Origin: Gammaproteobacteria bacterium
Lineage (GTDB): Bacteria > Pseudomonadota > Gammaproteobacteria > SZUA-229
Length of the DNA stretch: 64,000 nucleotides
NCBI GenBank assembly: GCA_016744065.1
Contig: JADGFA010000014.1
Location: 1-64,000 of the forward strand
Reading direction: 5' to 3'
Shown piece after piece: positions 1-8,214 of the stretch. How positions within the stretch are numbered: the first letter of the stretch is position 1; each line of letters begins with the position of its first letter. The notes beneath the pieces are model-generated. The model saw nothing but the letters and a program-made list of their open reading frames with translations, was not told where the DNA came from and did no database searches. The position numbers and the translations under genes were made by a program.

Positions 1-57
1 AGCGAAAGAAAACTACGTAATTATTTACTGGAAGACCGTGCTAGAGAAAACAGCTAA
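1..57 (+). CDS. C-terminal end of an unidentified protein (partial)
   Basis: An open frame runs in from the left edge and stops at TAA 55-57, giving 18 residues ending LEDRARENS. It is too short to assign to a family. The following 105 bases are noncoding and contain a small GCCTGT/ACAGGC hairpin at about 75-93. That this is a true gene end rather than a chance open frame is an inference from its charged composition and its position just before a non-coding gap. Confidence 0.3.
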   Translation, partial: SERKLRNYLLEDRARENS

Positions 58-162
58 AAAAACGGTCAAGTTCGCCTGTAAAAAACACAGGCTTGGACGC
101 GTAAACAGCACGCGCCACTTACCTCAGCGCTATATTTAGTAACCCAAAGGACAAGAAGCTTC

Positions 163-735
163 ATGATAAAAAAAATACAATATTTATTATTAATAGCATT
201 AGTTTTTGTAACAGGTTGTTCGTATAACCATAGTCTAAAAGTTGAAGATGCTGCTTATTCAAAGCAGGTATTCCCACCAGTATATCTTATAGTACGTCCA
301 CCTGGAGACTATGTAACAAACGGACAATTGGAGTATGCCAATGAGTTTACATATGAATTATCAAAGCGTAATAAGTTCAAGGCATTTACCAATTACACAG
401 GTTCCCCATATACTTTAGATATTGTTTATGGAGGAATGGACACAAGATCTCACCCTCAATTAATATGGTGGGTTATTACAGCTGCAAGCTTATTTATAAT
501 CCCTCATCAATTTGAGGCTGAATTTACTATGAATGCAAAAATATACAGAAATAATGAATTAATTAAGAAATATGAATACAAGGATACGCTTACAGGTTGG
601 GCCAGCTTGTTTAACACTCCAAGATCTGAGATGTCAGATATGCACGGCCAGCTCGCAGACCGTTTACTAAATGATCTGGAAAGAGATAATTTATTTACCA
701 ATGCGATATATACAAAAAAAGCAAAAAGCATATAA
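163..735 (+). CDS. Hypothetical lipoprotein, possible gene-cassette cargo
   Basis: A 190-residue protein of unknown function. It starts with a lipoprotein signal peptide (MIKK, a hydrophobic stretch, then lipobox VTGC with the acylated Cys near residue 19), so it should be anchored in the envelope. A second hydrophobic segment lies near residues 105-117 (WWVITAASLFIIP). An AAGGA Shine-Dalgarno lies upstream of ATG 163. The stop codon falls within the first bases of an attC-like site, the usual layout of an integron gene cassette, and AT content is high. No family was recognised; the lipoprotein call is firm, the cassette interpretation is inference. Confidence 0.7.
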   Translation: MIKKIQYLLLIALVFVTGCSYNHSLKVEDAAYSKQVFPPVYLIVRPPGDYVTNGQLEYANEFTYELSKRNKFKAFTNYTGSPYTLDIVYGGMDTRSHPQLIWWVITAASLFIIPHQFEAEFTMNAKIYRNNELIKKYEYKDTLTGWASLFNTPRSEMSDMHGQLADRLLNDLERDNLFTNAIYTKKAKSI

Positions 736-809
736 CAAGTCTCTGAAATCGTGTGTGCAAAAATCGGCACACACTCGGACCAAGCTAAACAACCAGCTTG
801 GCGTTAGGT
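731..809 (+). other. attC-like integron recombination site
   Basis: Seventy-nine bases begin with TATAACAAG, overlapping the stop codon of the preceding gene, and end with GCGTTAGGT, whose GTTAGGT matches the attC core GTTRRRY. Between them lie two imperfect stem-loops (TGTGTGC/GCACACA at about 752-774 and CCAAGCT/AGCTTGG at about 780-800). Length, position directly after a short ORF and end motifs fit an attC site; pairing of the outer boxes (AAG, CTG) is only partial. No integrase gene is in the window, so this may be a relic or a distal part of an array. Confidence 0.45.
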
Positions 810-865
810 GCCCAAGTGACCCACGAAAAGTAGACGCCTCAATTAACCAAATGAGGGTCTAAATT

Positions 866-1183
866 ATGACTAAGAAAACTAAAAACAAATACAATCATTA
901 CACTGAGGATTTCCGTCGAGAAGCAGTTCGTCGTTCAGAGCTACCTGACGTATCCGCTGTAGATGTTGCACGCGAATTGGGCATTCATCCCAATCAAATC
1001 TATAATTGGCGTAATCAATATAAACGTTTAACGGAGAAGCAATTTAATACTATGGATGGTGTCGATTACTCAAAACAAGAAAGTGAAGAGCTTCGCAAAC
1101 TCAAACGTCAAGTCGCTGACCTTAAAGAAGAGAATGAATTCTTAAAAAAGGCGACGGCGTACTTCGCCAAACCAAACTGGTAA
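866..1183 (+). CDS. IS3-family transposase OrfA
   Basis: A 105-residue transposase subunit. The N-terminal half is a helix-turn-helix of the Tnp_1/IS911 type (YTEDFRREAVRRSE, then VDVARELGIHPNQIYNWRNQ), which binds the element's inverted repeats. The C-terminal half is a leucine-zipper coiled coil (EELRKLKRQVADLKEENEFL) used for multimerisation. Length is normal for the family. The frame overlaps orfB through a slippery sequence near its 3' end, so it also forms the N-terminus of an OrfAB fusion. This gene itself looks intact. Confidence 0.9.
   Translation: MTKKTKNKYNHYTEDFRREAVRRSELPDVSAVDVARELGIHPNQIYNWRNQYKRLTEKQFNTMDGVDYSKQESEELRKLKRQVADLKEENEFLKKATAYFAKPNW
1144..1150 (+). promoter_or_regulatory. 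Programmed -1 frameshift site (A AAA AAG) of the IS
   Basis: The heptamer A AAA AAG is in the correct phase of orfA (TTA AAA AAG). A -1 slip moves the ribosome from the orfA frame into the open orfB frame, giving a fusion that continues GDGVLRQTKLVKYAFIESL before the first ATG of orfB. Such sites produce OrfAB transposase in the IS3 family; use here is inferred. Confidence 0.75.
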
Positions 1184-1230
1184 AGTACGCCTTTATTGAA
1201 TCACTGCGTGATGATTACGCGGTTGTTAAT

Positions 1231-2073
1231 ATGTGTTGTTGGACGAATGTAAGTCGCTCAGGTTATTACAAATGGCGCAATCGCAGTATGAGCTTACGCA
1301 AACAAAAGAAACAGCTTGTAACGAGCGCTGTCGTGACTACGTTTGAAACGTATAAGCATCGCTATGGTGCCAGGCGCATTACTGTCGAACTTAACGAGAC
1401 AGGTATACCCTGCAGTCTCAACCATATCGCTGACATCATGACTGAAAAAGGCTTGAAAGCCAGAAACGGGAAACATTATAAATATTTCCCTTCATTTAAT
1501 GCGCGCAACCATGTGAGTGATAACTTACTGGCACGCAATTTTACCGCTAGCAAGCCGAATGAGAAATGGGCCTCGGATATTACCTATATAAAAGTTGAAC
1601 GTGGCCATGTTTATTTAGCTGTTGTTATGGACCTGTTTTCACGAAAGATCATTGGCTGGTCGCTTGATACATCGATGACCAATCAGTTAATTATTGATGC
1701 CTTTAATATGGCTGTCGCAACTCGACAGGTACAGCCTGGATGTATACTTCACTCAGATCGTGGCGTTCAATATCGTTCTGGTGAATACCAATACCTATTG
1801 ATTAATGAAGGCATAAAACCTAGTATGAGTCGTAAGGGGAATTGTTGGGATAATGCAGCAATGGAATCATTCTTTGGAAGAATGAAGTTGAGTCTATTTA
1901 TGCAGAGCGATTTAATGGTAAGCAAGATGCTTATTGTTGTGTATTTGAATATATTGAAACTCTCTATAATCCGATTAGGCGACACTCTACTAATGGCTAC
2001 AAAAGCCCAAATAATTATGAAAATGAATATTACGATAAGTGCGCTTAAAACAGTGTCTACTTTTCGTGGGTAA
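1231..2073 (+). pseudogene. IS3-family transposase OrfB, frameshifted
   Basis: DDE recombinase of the rve superfamily. The first Asp (WASDITYI), second Asp (LHSDRGVQY) and catalytic Glu (WDNAAMESFFG) are present. Directly after the Glu motif one base is missing around 1885-1890 (ATGAAGTTGAG where the family reads M-K-V-E-S-I). The normal C-terminus, including YNPIRRHSTNGYKSP, continues in another frame and would stop at 2046-2048. The frame as it stands runs to a TAA inside the right inverted repeat, replacing about 55 residues with unrelated sequence. Loss of the conserved C-terminal segment probably inactivates the protein. The ATG at 1231 is nominal; the protein is normally made as the frameshift fusion. 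Confidence 0.85.
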
Positions 2074-2089
2074 CATCACCATATAAAAA

Positions 2090-2533
2090 ATGAATCAAGA
2101 GCAACAAGAATTAAAAGCATTAATTGAGCATTCAGAAGCAGTTGACTTTGCTCCCTTCGGTGAAGGGAGTAGTGAGTTATGGGTAAGTAAAACTGAAAAA
2201 GAACTAGGAATAAAACTACCCGCGTCATATAAATGGTGGTCATTGAATTATGGTGGTGGTGAAATATCAAATACAGAAATATACAGCATTTATGAAATGG
2301 AAGAAGTTGTAGGTGATGACATAGCCTACATGGCAAAGATAAACCAAAAAAACCAAGATATAGACATTAATGATAAACTTTATATTCTTGAAACAGGTCA
2401 TCATCAGGCGTACTTTGATACCACCAATATGTTAAATGAAGAATACCAAGTTGTAGAAGTATTTGATAATAACAAAGTAATACATACTAATTTTATTCAA
2501 TTCCTGATTTCACTAATAAGATCAATCGAATGA
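2090..2533 (+). CDS. SMI1/KNR4 (SUKH) family protein, likely immunity protein
   Basis: A 147-residue cytoplasmic protein with the SUKH signature: an N-terminal helix, KTEKELGIKLPASYKWW, the GGGEI turn after it, and a C-terminal segment ending in a helix (FIQFLISLIRSIE). SUKH proteins commonly neutralise contact-dependent or polymorphic toxins in bacteria, and stand-alone copies are frequent cargo in accessory islands and integron cassettes. No toxin lies beside it. It begins 16 bp after the IS end and is followed by TAACAAAACG, which resembles the start of an attC. Family assignment is good; the toxin it might counter cannot be told. Confidence 0.8.
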   Translation: MNQEQQELKALIEHSEAVDFAPFGEGSSELWVSKTEKELGIKLPASYKWWSLNYGGGEISNTEIYSIYEMEEVVGDDIAYMAKINQKNQDIDINDKLYILETGHHQAYFDTTNMLNEEYQVVEVFDNNKVIHTNFIQFLISLIRSIE

Positions 2534-2596
2534 AATTGGCTAACAAAACGTTTCAGTCTAACCCCAATGCCAGTAAGCTAAGCTCTAAGTCGTTCA

Positions 2597-3256
2597 TTAT
2601 AAAGCGCTTTTATATGCGGTAAAGTGTATATTGTTTTTGATGTTTTTCAATTTCCTTGGATTGCTCCGACCATCTCGAACAGCCTCAACGGTTCTGCTGA
2701 TATATTTAATTGTTCGGTGAATTAGAAATAAACAATCGTTGCCAATTAGTAACGTGAGTTGAATAATTTGATGTTTCATTTTTGATAGTGCCTGAGCAAA
2801 ATTAATTTTATATTTTAAGTTAAAATGCGTTGTTGCTTTTAATGTTATTTTTTGGGCTGCCATTACCATTAATGTAGTCAAATTAGATGCCATATTTTGG
2901 CGTAAAAATTTTGCTTAACTGACAAGGCTGACTTACCTGAAAAGTTTTCAATTTCAACCCATTGTTTTAAACGTTTATAGTTTTCTTCAATGCCCCAACG
3001 AAGATGGTAAAGACTTTTAAATAAACTGGTATCGTACTTAACCGTATCCATCAGATTTGTTATAAGCACTTCTATCTCATTTTTTAACTCAATACGAACA
3101 AGCCTTAGCTTAATAGGTTTAAATGATATTCCTTTTTCTTTGCATGTTCTTATAGATGAATTATTAGGCGTGATCGTAATTATTTTTACTTTCTTTTTAC
3201 TTGCGACAAAAGATTTAAATATTAAATCTCTATTGGCTTCATTCTTCTACCTGTCT
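2597..3256 (-). pseudogene. Decayed IS4-type transposase, C-terminal part
   Basis: Read on the minus strand, two frames join into one transposase C-terminus. The upstream piece contains the YREK signature of IS4 transposases: Y-x2-R-x3-E-x6-K in YHLRWGIEENYKRLK, preceded by a recognisable core (FVASKKKVKI, then IRTCKEKGISFKPIKLRLVR). A frameshift at about 2888 separates it from the downstream piece (ASNLTTLMVMAAQKI). A TAG stop interrupts the upstream part near 3250, and homology ends about 3256, just before the first MITE-like copy. No N-terminus or inverted repeats are left. This is a dead remnant. Confidence 0.7.
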
Positions 3257-3299
3257 CGGTCAGAAACAGCGCCCCGACGGAAGCAAGACTGGCACAGCC

Positions 3300-3370
3300 T
3301 TATCTGGATAACCCATAAATAAATACTTAGATTATATATACTTAACTATTAATATGGGTGTTTCAATAAG
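3300..3370. repeat. MITE-like palindromic element, copy 1 (internally deleted)
   Basis: Seventy-one bases run from TTATCTGGATAACCCATA to TATGGGTGTTTCAATAAG; the ends are imperfect inverted repeats. It matches copy 2 at 4428-4514 nearly throughout but lacks about 16 bases that in copy 2 form the right arm of the central hairpin. There is no coding capacity. Together the copies bracket the brnT-brnA genes. The parent transposon is not in the window. Confidence 0.65.
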
Positions 3371-3423
3371 CCTCACTATAACTCAAACACCATGATGCTA
3401 TTTATCTACAACTAATTATTAAA

Positions 3424-3600
3424 CTATTTTTTTATGATTTTACGGCTTCTTATATCTTTCTGCGTTATCAGTGGAGAGTCAGGATCGTTTTTTGCACGCT
3501 TTTCTACTTCTGCATCACTCATTGCACGTATTTTACTTACATTGAATAGTGGCGTTGTTGGCGCGCCTTTGATATGGTTTTTTTTGATTAATTTAGCCAT
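3424..3600 (-). CDS. Second short BrnA-like antitoxin
   Basis: A 58-residue protein, MAKLIKKNHIKG to SRKIIKK. Its centre (SDAEVEKRAKNDPDSPLIT) matches the centre of the gene just upstream (TEEEIEERAKNDPDSIPFT), showing a tandem duplication. That segment corresponds to the N-terminal toxin-binding part of BrnA antitoxins. The C-terminal ribbon-helix-helix of full BrnA proteins is missing, so this copy should bind toxin but not DNA by itself. It starts 7 bp after the stop of the first antitoxin gene, in one operon with the toxin. Confidence 0.6.
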   Translation of the reverse strand: MAKLIKKNHIKGAPTTPLFNVSKIRAMSDAEVEKRAKNDPDSPLITQKDIRSRKIIKK

Positions 3601-3607
3601 TATTAAA

Positions 3608-3805
3608 TTACCTGCCTCTAGGTGGATTTCTTTTTTTTACTTTTTTACTTTTAAAATCATTTTCAGTAAATGGTATCGAGTCAGGATCATTTTTAGCTCG
3701 TTCTTCAATCTCTTCCTCTGTTAATGAGTCCGCTTTTGTAAAATCAATATCACTATTGTCAACTGGATTATCTTTAGTGTGTTCTTGTTTAATTATTTTA
3801 CTCAT
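3608..3805 (-). CDS. brnA: Short BrnA-like antitoxin
   Basis: A 65-residue acidic protein with a basic tail (KSKKVKKRNPPRGR). The motif LTEEEIEERAKNDPDSIPFT resembles the N-terminal region of BrnA antitoxins, which wraps the BrnT toxin. The usual C-terminal ribbon-helix-helix (typically TVRLDADVL-like) is absent, making the protein shorter than common BrnA. The gene starts 3 bp after brnT, the toxin-first order normal for this system. The assignment rests on the motif plus context. Which of the two short antitoxins neutralises the toxin is open. Confidence 0.65.
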   Translation of the reverse strand: MSKIIKQEHTKDNPVDNSDIDFTKADSLTEEEIEERAKNDPDSIPFTENDFKSKKVKKRNPPRGR

Positions 3806-3808
3806 ACC

Positions 3809-4090
3809 TTAATTACCTCCATTTTGATATAAACGAAGCTCTTGTTTAGTTGCTTTTCTGACTGAAATTAAACGTATTGCTCCTTCCCCTCTTTCAGTGT
3901 AGACAACATAGAGAAGCTTAGTTCGATTGTCACGACCTAATATAATATAGCGACTTTCACCATAATCAAACCTTGAATCTTCAAATTCTATTGCATTGAT
4001 ATCATCAAATACAGGAATTCCGGCCTTCAATGGTATTTCATGATTTTTACGGTTTAGTTTGTCTTTGTCTTCACTCCACTCAAATAACAT
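3809..4090 (-). CDS. brnT: BrnT-type toxin (ribonuclease) of a type II toxin-antitoxin system
   Basis: A 93-residue protein with the BrnT pattern: N-terminal FEWSEDKDKLNRKNHEI (family FEWDxxKxxxNxxKHxI), the VFDD turn, YGESRYIILGRD, VVYTERGEG, and the C-terminal RLISVRKATKQELRLY with its conserved Arg, Lys and Glu. BrnT is a RelE-fold mRNA-cleaving toxin held inactive by BrnA. Length is normal. A GGAG Shine-Dalgarno lies 12 bases before ATG 4090. Two short antitoxin genes follow in the same operon. The module is bracketed by two MITE-like copies. Confidence 0.85.
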   Translation of the reverse strand: MLFEWSEDKDKLNRKNHEIPLKAGIPVFDDINAIEFEDSRFDYGESRYIILGRDNRTKLLYVVYTERGEGAIRLISVRKATKQELRLYQNGGN

Positions 4091-4321
4091 TTTATTTAAA
4101 CTCCGTTTTCTTTGTTATATTAAATGCTAATGCCAAGTTCGATTGACCGTAACAGTTTTTAACTTACTCGGCAATATTGAGCGAACGAAAGCCATATGAA
4201 ATAAATATGAAAACAGTGACGAGTCACCCATCGATAGTGAAAAGCATCATCAGCTTTTGAAATACGAACAAGATCGGCTGAGCCACTCAATGCATAACTG
4301 CCCTTAAAAGTATAAAAGTTA

Positions 4322-4430
4322 TCAAATTAATTCACTGGATTCTTCTAATATTGATACAACTGTCGATAGGCCCTGTTTTTTGAGTATTGCCAGATATTCT
4401 CCAATCTGAATACGACTGATTAACAACTTA
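4322..4430 (-). pseudogene. Orphan C-terminal gene fragment cut by MITE-like copy 2
   Basis: On the minus strand an open frame leaves the MITE-like element and codes for about 35 residues (ISRIQIGEYLAILKKQGLS, then VVSILEESSELI) ending at TGA 4322-4324. The composition looks like a real protein end with two amphipathic helices, and it begins exactly where the repeat ends. No family was recognised. It may be the tail of a gene disrupted by the repeat; a chance open frame is the alternative. Confidence 0.25.
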
Positions 4431-4514
4431 TCTGGACACCCATAACAACAAAATACTTAGACTATATCTAAGTATTTGTTTTTACTTAACTATTAATATG
4501 GGTGTCTCAATAAG
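4428..4514. repeat. MITE-like palindromic element, copy 2 (fuller form)
   Basis: Eighty-seven bases with 17-bp terminal inverted repeats that agree at 14 positions (TTATCTGGACACCCATA and the complement of TATGGGTGTCTCAATAA). The centre holds a perfect 11-bp hairpin (AAATACTTAGA, loop CTATA, TCTAAGTATTT). Copy 1 at 3300-3370 is the same element in the same orientation. No ORF. Structure and size fit a miniature inverted-repeat element moved by an absent transposase. The remaining sequence between brnT and this element (about 4091-4321) holds the brnT promoter region and nothing else I recognise. Confidence 0.7.
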
Positions 4515-4538
4515 CTGATAAGCTGTATAAACTTAGTG

Positions 4539-5066
4539 CTAGATAGCATCACGAAGGGTATCAATATGTATAAACATGGGGGTAGGTGCAGGATTTTCTC
4601 GAGATTTTAATGGTATAAAACCTCGCTCTTCATAGAAAGTATAGGCATTCTCATCAGCATCTAGATACAAACCGTAAATACCGATTTCATCTGCTGCCGC
4701 GACTGTTCGCAATATGATATTTTGAAGCAGTAACTTGCCTAATCCCCGCCCTTTGTATTCTTTATCAACACCTAGCATTACTAAACGGGATACAGGTATC
4801 CGGGCGGGTAAACTACCTTTTGATAACACACTTAACATATCGGCATTAATGCTAAACGCACTGATGGTATAGAAACCCACAAAACGATCATTGTTATCCG
4901 TATCAACCAGTACAAAACAGTTACTAAGTGACTGCTTGACCTGCTTCTTTAATGAACCCGCGACAAATTTATTAATCGCTTTATTTTCACAATCAAAGCG
5001 CTTTTGATTGATATAAGTTTTACTGGGATCGAAAGTTTCTAAGACAATCGTTTTGTTATCGCTCAA
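4539..5066 (-). CDS. GNAT acetyltransferase, TacT-type toxin
   Basis: A 175-residue GNAT-fold enzyme. The acetyl-CoA loop is visible as VDKEYKGRGLGKLLL (R/QxxGxG/A pattern), followed by YGLYLDADENAYTFYEERGF, where the Tyr fits the catalytic Tyr of TacT-like toxins. Members acetylate the aminoacyl group of charged tRNAs and block translation. The start overlaps the end of the DUF1778 antitoxin gene by 11 bases, the standard layout of these pairs, so expression is probably coupled. The gene ends just outside MITE-like copy 2. Confident as a toxin-antitoxin GNAT; the tRNA target is unknown. Confidence 0.85.
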   Translation of the reverse strand: MSDNKTIVLETFDPSKTYINQKRFDCENKAINKFVAGSLKKQVKQSLSNCFVLVDTDNNDRFVGFYTISAFSINADMLSVLSKGSLPARIPVSRLVMLGVDKEYKGRGLGKLLLQNIILRTVAAADEIGIYGLYLDADENAYTFYEERGFIPLKSRENPAPTPMFIHIDTLRDAI

Positions 5067-5334
5067 CTAGCGGCTCCATCGCCATCAGCTCTTTAAGTGC
5101 TTTCGTTGACTTAGCCGGCGCTCGCATAGCATCCATGAAGCTCTTTTGCTCATCACGAGAAAGTGACAATGCATTATATTCACTTAATACCACTTTCGCT
5201 CTGGCTTCAGATGATGACAACATAAACGAGGTTAGATCCTGACCAGACAATGACGCAGCATTATTAAGCATCTCTTTCATGGTTTGACTAGTTTTGATCT
5301 CTACGCGCGCGTCTTTCAATGCAGCTACACTCAT
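5056..5334 (-). CDS. DUF1778 antitoxin, TacA-type
   Basis: A 92-residue antitoxin. The N-terminus (ARVEIKTSQTMKEMLNNAA, then TSFML) is the ribbon-helix-helix that binds DNA as a dimer; the C-terminal helical part (LSRDEQKSFMDAMRAPAK) wraps the GNAT toxin encoded next. I start at ATG 5334 because GGAGGTGG lies 6 bases upstream; an in-frame GTG 15 bases earlier would place that Shine-Dalgarno inside the gene. The upstream region holds two palindromes sharing TACGGA/TATACGTATA-type sequence, the expected autoregulatory operators. Confidence 0.85.
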   Translation of the reverse strand: MSVAALKDARVEIKTSQTMKEMLNNAASLSGQDLTSFMLSSSEARAKVVLSEYNALSLSRDEQKSFMDAMRAPAKSTKALKELMAMEPLVER

Positions 5335-5365
5335 TTTTACCACCTCCACCTAACAATACGGACAA

Positions 5366-5427
5366 TATACGTATACTATATGCTAGAACATTGAATGTCA
5401 ACATAATACGGATACTATCCGTATTAT
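5366..5427. promoter_or_regulatory. Palindromic operators of the tacA/tacT-type operon
   Basis: A perfect 25-bp palindrome lies at 5403-5427: arms ATAATACGGATA and TATCCGTATTAT around a central C. A second palindrome, TATACGTATA, lies at 5366-5375, and AATACGGACAATA at 5356-5368 repeats half of the first. Both are directly upstream of the antitoxin gene. Ribbon-helix-helix antitoxins bind such paired repeats with their toxin to repress the operon; binding here is inferred. Confidence 0.6.
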
Positions 5428-5656
5428 AAAAACAACCAGTATTTGTTAACTTGTCCTGCATTCCAATGAAGACAATAAGCAGGTAATCGTCGCTACTTGT
5501 CGAGGCCTTCGACCATAAGCCCCAACAATATAACCATTATCATTGGATAAGGAAAAACCATACCCCACGAAAGAACTCATGTCCGGTTGCATTTAGTAAA
5601 CCGAAGCGTTGCAGATGCCCTCGACTGCACGAACCCAAAAATTCTGTCCGTAATCC
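5428..5656. other. Gene-poor stretch, no recognised feature
   Basis: This stretch lies upstream of the toxin-antitoxin operators. A 44-residue frame on the minus strand (5446-5580, beginning MSSFVGYGFSL) has no convincing ribosome binding site or family match. The composition is less AT-rich than the flanks, which hints at a fragment of mobile or foreign DNA. I see no RNA gene or repeat. Confidence 0.3.
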
Positions 5657-5860
5657 CTATATAAAGCAATCAACATAATCAGGATCTATTTTTCGCGGTA
5701 TCAAAAATTCTAATAACGCTTGATGAAACTTTAATACTTGATGATAATGCTCGAACACCTGATCTATCATAAGAAAATCTGGGTGATAGGAGTTGTTTTC
5801 ATCCTCCCATAAACCCCTCTGAAGATGAACAAATTTTTTTTGCAAAAAAAAATTCACCAC
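5657..5860 (-). CDS. Small hypothetical protein downstream of senB
   Basis: A possible 67-residue protein starting at a GTG 11 bases after the senB stop codon. It is rich in His, Phe and Leu (DQVFEHYHQVLKFHQALLEFL) and has an A/T-rich homopolymeric start. No domain is recognised. Support is weak: the start codon is GTG, there is no clear Shine-Dalgarno, and only the close spacing to senB suggests co-expression. It may instead be a remnant or a chance frame. Confidence 0.3.
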   Translation of the reverse strand: MVNFFLQKKFVHLQRGLWEDENNSYHPDFLMIDQVFEHYHQVLKFHQALLEFLIPRKIDPDYVDCFI

Positions 5861-5871
5861 TATATTAATAG

Positions 5872-6822
5872 TTAAAATTTATTTAACAACTCAGACCAGC
5901 CCAATCTCTCAGCACCCACCGTAAACAACTTCGCCCGCTCCTCACATTGCTGAGTTAAAACTTTAACAAACACCGTATCACTTTCTGCCTTTAACAAAAT
6001 TTCACACAATGCTTTTTCGTTTTTTACTGGAAAATAACCGGCATAATTCTCACCCAACAAACCAACTGAACCATCGATATCTGAGGCAATTACCGGTAAC
6101 CCAGCAACAACTGCTTCCGAAATAACATTTGCACCACCTTCCATTACTGAAGGCAATACCATTAAATGACAGCGGCCATAAGCTGCACGAACCTCGTTAT
6201 GAGGTACCTCACCAAACCACTGGTAACATGGATTAATTTTCATTTCTTTTTTTGCTCGATTAGCCCATTCATCATTATGCGCTTTCCCGTAATGTAATAT
6301 TCTAATGCGACTTTTTTTTGGCAAATCTCTTACTGCATAAGCTACACGTAAAGAATCTTTTTCTTCACGTAGATGTCCGACAACACAAATATCGAATGTA
6401 TCGACGGAACGTTCTGGTAAATTTTTTACGGGTAAAGCAGACTGATGTATTACATGAATTTTATCGTGCACTGATTCAGGTAAAGATCGATATGCCAGGT
6501 CATGTAATGTGACTAATTTATCGGCCAGGTGAATTGACCTTAATGTGGGCCCTGGGTGACTGTTAATAAAACGATATAAATCGGTGCCGGTCATAGCAAG
6601 CACTAATGGTCTGTCCGGGTATTTCTGTTTAAAATTCACAATTGATTCAGCACTGCGCCAGGCATGTAACGCCACCATTAAATCATATTCACTTCCATCC
6701 CAGCACACACTGATGTCTACTTTATGTCCCAGCTCAGTTAAAAAACCGGCCCAGCGTTGTGCTGTGGCCCGGTTTCCGTTTAGTGATCCCGGGGCTGCGG
6801 GGGTTATTATTCCGATATGCAT
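5872..6822 (-). CDS. senB: SenB-type selenosugar synthase (glycosyltransferase, TIGR04348-like)
   Basis: A 316-residue GT-B glycosyltransferase. The N-terminus (MHIGIITPAAPGSLNGNRA then TAQRWAGFL) carries the GNRxTAxRWA motif of the TIGR04348 family. The C-terminal nucleotide-sugar domain shows EGGANVISEAVVAGLPV. SenB joins selenophosphate to a UDP-sugar to form a selenosugar, the selenium donor for selenoneine. Divergent to it, 99 bp away, is a SenA homologue, which supports the specific assignment over a generic glycosyltransferase. Cytoplasmic. The usual third gene, senC (selenophosphate synthetase), is not beside it. Confidence 0.8.
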   Translation of the reverse strand: MHIGIITPAAPGSLNGNRATAQRWAGFLTELGHKVDISVCWDGSEYDLMVALHAWRSAESIVNFKQKYPDRPLVLAMTGTDLYRFINSHPGPTLRSIHLADKLVTLHDLAYRSLPESVHDKIHVIHQSALPVKNLPERSVDTFDICVVGHLREEKDSLRVAYAVRDLPKKSRIRILHYGKAHNDEWANRAKKEMKINPCYQWFGEVPHNEVRAAYGRCHLMVLPSVMEGGANVISEAVVAGLPVIASDIDGSVGLLGENYAGYFPVKNEKALCEILLKAESDTVFVKVLTQQCEERAKLFTVGAERLGWSELLNKF

Positions 6823-6921
6823 TTTTATATATTAGACTATCTTATGAAGATGATAAAACTATTACAGTTTCACCCTCTTATCTCAACAAAATAATTATAA
6901 TATATATGTCATAATCCAGAT

Positions 6922-8214
6922 ATGGACTCACAAATAATAGAATCATTAATCGCTGATCTTAAAGACACGCGGCAACGAACCCTTGCATTAATCAATGATT
7001 TAAATTCACAACAACTTATTGGCCCAATGCTGGACACGGTAAATCCTTTATTATGGGAGATTGGCCATGTTGCCTATTTTTATGAATTCTGGATTTTACG
7101 TAATCGACATGGCACTCATTCTTTTTTAAAAAATGCAGATGCACTTTATGACTCTATAACCATTGCCCATAATGATCGCTGGGATTTGCCTCTGCTATCT
7201 CTTGATGAAACAAAAAGCTATATGCAACAGGTACTCGATGGCGTAACTCAATGCCTGCAAAGTGACAGGGTAACCGAGCAGGATATTTATCTTGCTCGTT
7301 ATGGCTGCTTTCATGAAGATATGCACACGGAAGCTTTTACTTATACCCGCCGAACTTTAAATTACCCGGCACCTGAGCTAGCTAATTGTCATTTTAATCG
7401 CAAACAATATAATGCCGGTGCACTTGATGGTGATGTGGAAATAAAAGGTGGTGAGTATTTATTGGGCGCACCCCAGGACATTGATTTCTGTTTTGATAAT
7501 GAAAAATGGCAGCATCCGGTTACGCTAAAACCTTTTGCAATATCCCGTGCAGCAACCAGCTACCAGCAATACGCCGATTTTGTAGATGATAACGGCTATA
7601 GCAATAAACAGTTCTGGGATGATGAAAGCTGGCAATGGTTACAGTCAAACAAAATCACCACTCCCAATGGCTGGAAAAAAGATAACAATGGAAACTGGTT
7701 AATCAAACAGTTTGATCAATGGGCGTCTTTACGCCCCCATGCAGCGGTTATACATATCAACTGGCATGAGGCTCGGGCCTGGTGTCGTTGGGCCGGCCGA
7801 CGCCTGCCCAGTGAAGCTGAATGGGAGCTGGCGGCATCTGGCACGCCTGATAATATTAATGAGAAACGCAATTTCCCATGGGGCAATGAAAAACCAACAG
7901 AAAACCTTGCCAATCTGAATAGTTATGCCATGGGCACAATTGATGTTGGTGCTTTAGCGGAAGGCGACAGTGCATTTGGCTGTCGGCAGATGATCGGCAA
8001 CACATGGGAATGGGTAGAAGATACTTTCAATCCTTACCCGGATTTTGTTGCAGACATGTATGGTGATTATTCTCAGCCATTATTTAAGCAGACAAAGGTT
8101 TTACGCGGTGGCGCATGGACAACTCGTGCCCGTATGATTCGCAATACCTGGCGCACTTATTATGGGCCTGAACGGAATGACGTGTTTGCGGGCTTCAGAA
8201 GTTGTGCCCTATAA
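6922..8214 (+). CDS. senA: SenA-type selenoneine synthase (EgtB-like nonheme iron enzyme)
   Basis: A 430-residue enzyme with an N-terminal DinB-like domain and a C-terminal formylglycine-generating-enzyme fold. The iron ligands expected for EgtB/SenA are visible: His49 in WEIGHVA, and H131-x3-H135-x-E137 (CFHEDMHTEAF). The FGE part shows RWAGRRLPSEAEWELAASG, GNTWEWVEDTF and KVLRGGAWTTRA. SenA couples hercynine to a selenosugar using O2. Linkage with SenB indicates selenoneine rather than ergothioneine. No egtD (hercynine synthesis) is in the window, so hercynine must be made elsewhere or imported. An EgtB with thiol substrates is the alternative. Confidence 0.8.
   Translation: MDSQIIESLIADLKDTRQRTLALINDLNSQQLIGPMLDTVNPLLWEIGHVAYFYEFWILRNRHGTHSFLKNADALYDSITIAHNDRWDLPLLSLDETKSYMQQVLDGVTQCLQSDRVTEQDIYLARYGCFHEDMHTEAFTYTRRTLNYPAPELANCHFNRKQYNAGALDGDVEIKGGEYLLGAPQDIDFCFDNEKWQHPVTLKPFAISRAATSYQQYADFVDDNGYSNKQFWDDESWQWLQSNKITTPNGWKKDNNGNWLIKQFDQWASLRPHAAVIHINWHEARAWCRWAGRRLPSEAEWELAASGTPDNINEKRNFPWGNEKPTENLANLNSYAMGTIDVGALAEGDSAFGCRQMIGNTWEWVEDTFNPYPDFVADMYGDYSQPLFKQTKVLRGGAWTTRARMIRNTWRTYYGPERNDVFAGFRSCAL

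Follow-up and report, generated by a model that had tools for sequence, protein, structure and literature searches.

The pairing of senB, for a selenosugar synthase (Se-glycosyltransferase), with a gene for an EgtB-like iron enzyme of the SenA type raises the question of whether the host makes selenoneine and, if so, of where it obtains the substrates. In the known route, SelD/SenC provides selenophosphate, SenB turns it into a selenosugar, SenA couples the selenosugar to hercynine and the resulting selenoxide breaks down to selenoneine (PMC9814287, PMC10702425, PMC10891094, PMC10903977). The pair analyzed here lies in the window, a stretch covering bases 1-64,000 of contig C4 in a 3.88 Mb gammaproteobacterial genome (G000) that is 99% complete and split over 94 contigs. 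A sequence-only reading of the window had described two divergent genes predicting selenoneine synthesis, with neither senC/selD nor egtD in the 64 kb. The open reading frames confirm the arrangement and are intact: senB (316 aa) occupies 5872-6822 on the reverse strand, the senA-type selenoxide synthase gene (430 aa) occupies 6922-8214 on the forward strand, and 99 bp (6823-6921) separate the divergent start codons. Both promoters presumably lie in this interval, in which a promoter scan gave matches no better than those of shuffles. Both genes very probably belong to the known pathway for selenoneine, a selenium antioxidant.

The senB product scores 401.4 bits against TIGR04348 (curated cut-off 300), contains the GNRATAQRWA motif, and has the SenB structures 8jjn, 8jjq and 8fbx as its best PDB matches. 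It is 40% identical to the SenB of V. paradoxus, in which ten residues (N20, T23, H58, R61, T83, T85, R155, K158, E231 and E239) were tested by mutation and shown to matter (PMC10891094). Their counterparts here are N17, T20, H53, R56, T78, T80, R152, K155, E228 and E236, and these include the catalytic lysine (Lys158, here K155) and the donor/selenophosphate residues N20, T23, E231, T83 and T85 (here N17, T20, E228, T78 and T80). The comparison also brings out two departures, V157 corresponding to Glu and H235 to Asn. The region 5872-6822 is thus an intact senB gene, and its product is predicted to make a selenosugar from selenophosphate and a UDP-sugar.

The product of the second gene scores 485.2 bits against NF041186 (curated cut-off 420), with no second match above the cut-off in the source genome, and 304 bits against the EgtB model TIGR03440, below its cut-off of 360. 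Its DinB-like and sulfatase-modifying-factor domains are those of the EgtB fold, and its AlphaFold model (mean pLDDT 81.8, with lower confidence around residues 396-410) adopts an EgtB-type fold that is nearest to OvsA, and then to SenA and EgtB. H49, H131 and H135 occupy the positions of the iron histidines of EgtB, SenA and OvsA; together with the catalytic tyrosine Y380 they correspond to H51, H134, H138 and Y377 of EgtB (in this alignment, EgtB residue numbers are chain numbers minus one). Of the iron site first proposed, the three histidines and the fold stand, but the conserved E137 is located beside the site and is not part of the triad. Of 13 selenium-side residues that are invariant in SenA and OvsA but do not occur in EgtB, the enzyme has 10, including M134 in place of an EgtB Gln. 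Clustering with EgtB had been named as grounds for abandoning the SenA assignment; instead, both trees place the enzyme apart from EgtB types I and II (support 100/99 in the first tree). The gene at 6922-8214 most likely encodes a selenoneine synthase, predicted to act on hercynine and the selenosugar.

The genome also encodes a 390-aa EgtB/SenA-like paralogue (G000:C81:23618-24790; L013:7619-8791) with an unusual iron motif, HYARHYE. This protein groups with other short gammaproteobacterial enzymes in a separate clade, relatives of it are located next to egtD in several genomes (G109, G115, G213, G094 and G139), and it is a candidate divergent ergothioneine enzyme. We also considered whether the paralogue might be the genuine SenA and the window gene a different kind of enzyme, but rejected this, since the paralogue reaches neither the SenA nor the EgtB cut-off (262.7 and 250.3 bits) and belongs to its own clade.

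The sequence-only reading had held that selenophosphate and hercynine must come from genes elsewhere, unless the enzymes use other substrates, and a search of the whole genome recovers a gene for each. The first is NDH-selD (759 aa; C47:21-2300, forward strand), on a 5.9-kb contig; in its product a pyridine nucleotide-disulfide oxidoreductase domain at the N-terminus (TIGR03169, 490 bits) precedes a SelD domain scoring 291-294 bits (cut-off 125), which retains both the Cys and the Lys of its GGCGAKVG active-site motif. A selenophosphate synthetase of the SenC/SelD type, the absence of which from the genome had been put forward as a second reason for abandoning the assignment, hence accompanies senA and senB. 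The other is egtD, at the very start of C53 (338-1342, reverse strand), with 394 bits against the EgtD model (cut-off 291). By sequence, everything needed for the selenoneine route is encoded in the source genome.

The contigs bearing these genes can be connected to the window. The first 48 bases of the window are identical (48/48) to the right end of C47 (C47:5875-5922), a sequence that occurs only twice in the genome when up to 3 mismatches are allowed, and C47 overlaps C53 over 103 bases (99% identical) within the 5' end of NDH-selD. The joined order, which is based on assembly overlaps and synteny and not on reads, is egtD (reverse), NDH-selD (forward), a 9,445-bp insert, senB (reverse) and senA (forward), about 15 kb in all; counting leftwards from base 1 of the window, selD ends at ~3.6 kb and egtD starts at ~6.1 kb. 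In a genome of the same genus (G120) the same four genes are contiguous, with identical order and orientation, and the flanks (folB/folK and an SDR gene) match those of the source locus. All four source open reading frames are full length and 80-83% identical to their G120 counterparts. The contig overlaps and the G120 synteny give one cluster, and we are confident that senB and senA form one half of a selenoneine cluster of four genes, the other two being egtD and NDH-selD. The reported lack of senC/selD and egtD therefore applies inside the 64 kb but not to the locus, since both genes lie in the same cluster just beyond the window edge and the insertion; it is a window-edge effect, and the apparent gap in the supply genes of this senB/senA locus is resolved. 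A stretch of ~206 bp between egtD and NDH-selD (L007:89-294, on C53 of G000) is absent from G120.

The comparative analysis places this cluster among many others of its kind. SenA is found above the cut-off in 19 of 276 gammaproteobacterial genomes, 18 of which carry a divergent senB within 1.5 kb of senA; a set of 80 named relatives, drawn from many phyla, yielded senB in 61 cases, of which 39 are divergent and 22 co-directional. Divergence, which had been taken as a departure from senABC, is thus the usual order. Co-occurrence was assessed in 60 gammaproteobacterial genomes, 19 with SenA and 41 without it. EgtD is present in 19/19 SenA genomes versus 21/41 others (Fisher p 8e-5) and SelD in 19/19 versus 5/41 (Fisher p 2e-11), although the shared ancestry of these genomes makes both p values optimistic, overstating independence. 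An open frame of the length of the NDH-SelD fusion is present in 18 of the 19 SenA genomes, as opposed to 3 of the 41 others. The genes senA, egtD and NDH-selD are directly consecutive in G110, G137, G040 and G167; G051, G274, G109, G104 and G209 resemble G120 in that the fusion faces senB.

The same genomes inform on the other uses of SelD. No SelA was found in any of the 19 SenA genomes, the source genome among them. SelU is present above the cut-off in 9 of the 19, again including the source genome, where SelD hence also serves tRNA. In the 10 genomes with neither SelA nor SelU, selenoneine is the sole SelD client found in a search that covered the SelA and SelU traits; a third, the molybdenum hydroxylase cofactor (yqeB/yqeC), might also draw on SelD there. 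Fusions of an NADH oxidoreductase with SelD have been described previously (PMC2432076, PMC4561486), with the same domain order and the same models (TIGR03169 and SelD), and PMC2432076 put forward the notion that the oxidoreductase half supplies SelD with reduced selenium. Those papers link the fusion to known selenium uses, whereas here it is part of a sen cluster. The literature searched, which did not extend to the primary papers on sen (Nature 2022) or on ovoselenol (Nat Chem 2024), makes no mention of NDH-SelD in sen loci. The newer part of this work is the apparent role of the fusion as the selenophosphate synthetase of the pathway in gammaproteobacteria. We lean, if only slightly, towards a stronger proposal, in which gammaproteobacterial NDH-SelD would be dedicated to selenoneine synthesis, its oxidoreductase domain would hand reduced selenium to SelD, and the fusion would form with egtD, senB and senA a self-sufficient selenite-to-selenoneine module. 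If true, SelD gains a client in genomes using neither selenocysteine nor selenouridine, organisms that predictions of selenium use from SelA/SelB/SelU alone would miss, and a common but unexplained fusion is given a testable role.

The identity of the second substrate calls for closer examination. The sequence-only reading had considered EgtB as the alternative to SenA; EgtB is indeed disfavored, but the nearer alternative is OvsA, the closest solved structure, which had been overlooked. OvsA of Halomonas utahensis joins the selenosugar to histidine, for ovoselenol (PDB 8u41, 8u42, 8ux5), and an OvsA-like selenoxide synthase acting on histidine would here yield ovoselenol or another selenohistidine. 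The resemblance is substantial: OvsA is the best solved match by sequence (305 bits versus 219 for V. paradoxus SenA) and the closer one by fold (Z 40 versus 36; TM 0.86 versus 0.74), and an AU test (p 0.29) does not reject a topology in which OvsA groups with the window clade. Where two SenA and two OvsA sequences each have a fixed residue of their own, the window enzyme is SenA-like in 19 columns and OvsA-like in 22. Overall similarity is thus non-discriminating, and it is gene linkage and a small number of active-site positions that speak for hercynine.

According to the PDB title of 8ux5, the OvsA variant M401Y/Q430N/A431F binds hercynine and has selenoneine-making activity. The positions concerned are Met401/Gln430/Ala431 in OvsA, Tyr/Asn/Phe in V. 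paradoxus SenA and Y383/T412/Y413 in the window enzyme, which has two of the three residues of the hercynine-binding Tyr/Asn/aromatic set, and these two point to hercynine. Two further observations count against selenoneine: Thr412 is of neither the SenA nor the OvsA type, replacing the Asn of characterized SenA and EgtB, and the C81 paralogue could compete for hercynine. Nonetheless, most of the Tyr-Thr-Tyr enzymes (8 of 107 aligned sequences) have egtD in their cluster (G120, G110, G137, L095), as does the source locus, which makes the threonine compatible with a supply of hercynine and, combined with the pocket residues, favors selenoneine. Characterized OvsA and its G193 homologue share Met/Gln/Ala and HQNMH, as opposed to Tyr/Thr/Tyr and HEDMH in the window enzyme. 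In the wider tree, a 51-row group (SH-aLRT 92) unites V. paradoxus SenA with the window enzyme, and OvsA is excluded from an 80-row group (SH-aLRT 91) to which both of these belong. The source genome has no gene above the cut-off of the OvoA methyltransferase model, and G193 carries separate OvsA-type and SenA-type genes side by side, indicating that the two types are distinct. The specificity residues and the egtD linkage hence disfavor synthesis from histidine, which we consider unlikely, and the original prediction of selenoneine is supported by family models, pocket residues, linkage and co-occurrence. Because they vary naturally at the positions that set the choice between hercynine and histidine, the Tyr-Thr-Tyr enzymes should be useful for enzymology. 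As a separate observation, less than 4 kb of G193 (L051:4966-8796; G193:C4) holds the SenA-type gene, a stand-alone selD and the OvsA-type gene, which scores 558 bits against OvsA; this may be a joint ovoselenol and selenoneine locus.

The insert between selD and senB bears on whether the predicted selenoneine pathway is still functional. In G120 the stop codons of these two genes are 37 bp apart between matching flanks, which indicates an insertion of 9,445 bp between the convergent selD and senB. The left part (C47:2301-5874) and the right part (window 1-5871) are both absent from G120. According to Pfam, the left part encodes HipA, a HipB-like HTH protein and a TacA antitoxin, and the right part an IS3-type transposase (866-2073), a SUKH protein (2090-2533), BrnT (3809-4090) and a TacA antitoxin with its GNAT partner (4539-5349); the whole thus amounts to HipBA, two TacA-type modules (one with a GNAT partner), BrnT, SUKH and the transposase. 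Such a load of mobile and toxin-antitoxin DNA might be thought to have inactivated the pathway, leaving four intact genes that no longer work together. We regard this as very unlikely: the insertion separated selD from senB but broke none of the four genes, all of which retain the length and identity to G120 given above; falling between convergent genes, it removed neither promoter; and a member of the family, G220, also has scattered sen genes.

The insertion contains related palindromic repeats of ~75-90 bp with the ends ACACCCATA...TATGGGTGT (window 3299-3371 and 4430-4516; L006:4441-4529 and 5582-5668). One of them is strongly folded as single-stranded DNA (z -6.4) and another lacks such folding; they may be MITE-like or attC-like elements. 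Elsewhere in the genome, an integron-integrase-like gene (G000:C56:7819-8766; L173) scores 403.6 bits (cut-off 265) and has one in-frame TGA. Together with the repeats, this gene raises the possibility that the insert is of attC/integron origin.

That the enzyme is an ergothioneine sulfoxide synthase (EgtB), next to a glycosyltransferase by chance, is scarcely credible in spite of the shared fold, the hercynine supply and the match to the EgtB model, given the sub-threshold score and the separation in both trees, the replacement of EgtB Q137 and D416 by M134 and Y414, and the presence of an adjoining senB in 18 of the 19 relatives above the SenA cut-off but within 1.5 kb of none of the EgtB-II genes examined.

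In the selenoneine pathway proposed for this locus, NDH-SelD would convert selenide and ATP into selenophosphate, its N-terminal oxidoreductase domain possibly reducing the selenium source beforehand; SenB would use the selenium and a UDP-sugar to form the selenosugar; EgtD would trimethylate histidine to hercynine; and SenA, with iron and O2, would couple the selenosugar to hercynine, yielding a selenoxide that would fall apart and, upon reduction, give selenoneine. The sequence data show the genes and their integrity, together with the catalytic residues, clade, linkage and co-occurrence; we infer the chemistry in the source organism by analogy with V. paradoxus, along with expression and the function of the NDH domain.

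Among the closest known systems is senABC of V. paradoxus DSM 30034 (Kayrouz et al. 2022, via PMC9814287, PMC10702425 and PMC10891094), which has the same types of SenB and SenA, the same SenB catalytic residues and the same need for selenophosphate and hercynine. The source locus differs in its divergent senB and senA, in relying on an NDH-SelD fusion as predicted selenophosphate synthetase, in having egtD in the cluster and in the interruption by an insertion; its SenA is ~37% identical to that of V. paradoxus over the structural alignment and ~25-30 residues longer. OvsA of Halomonas utahensis (8u41, 8u42, 8ux5) shares the fold, the iron site and the selenosugar-side residues at 37-40% identity, but binds histidine through Met401/Gln430/Ala431, where the window enzyme has Tyr383/Thr412/Tyr413. 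EgtB types I and II (4x8b, 6qki) share the fold, the three-histidine iron site and the hercynine-side Tyr and aromatic residue, but have Gln137/Asp416 on the cysteine-donor side, instead of Met/Tyr, and no senB neighbor. The cluster is thus of a known kind, and what it adds, modestly, is the association with NDH-SelD and a Tyr-Thr-Tyr pocket.
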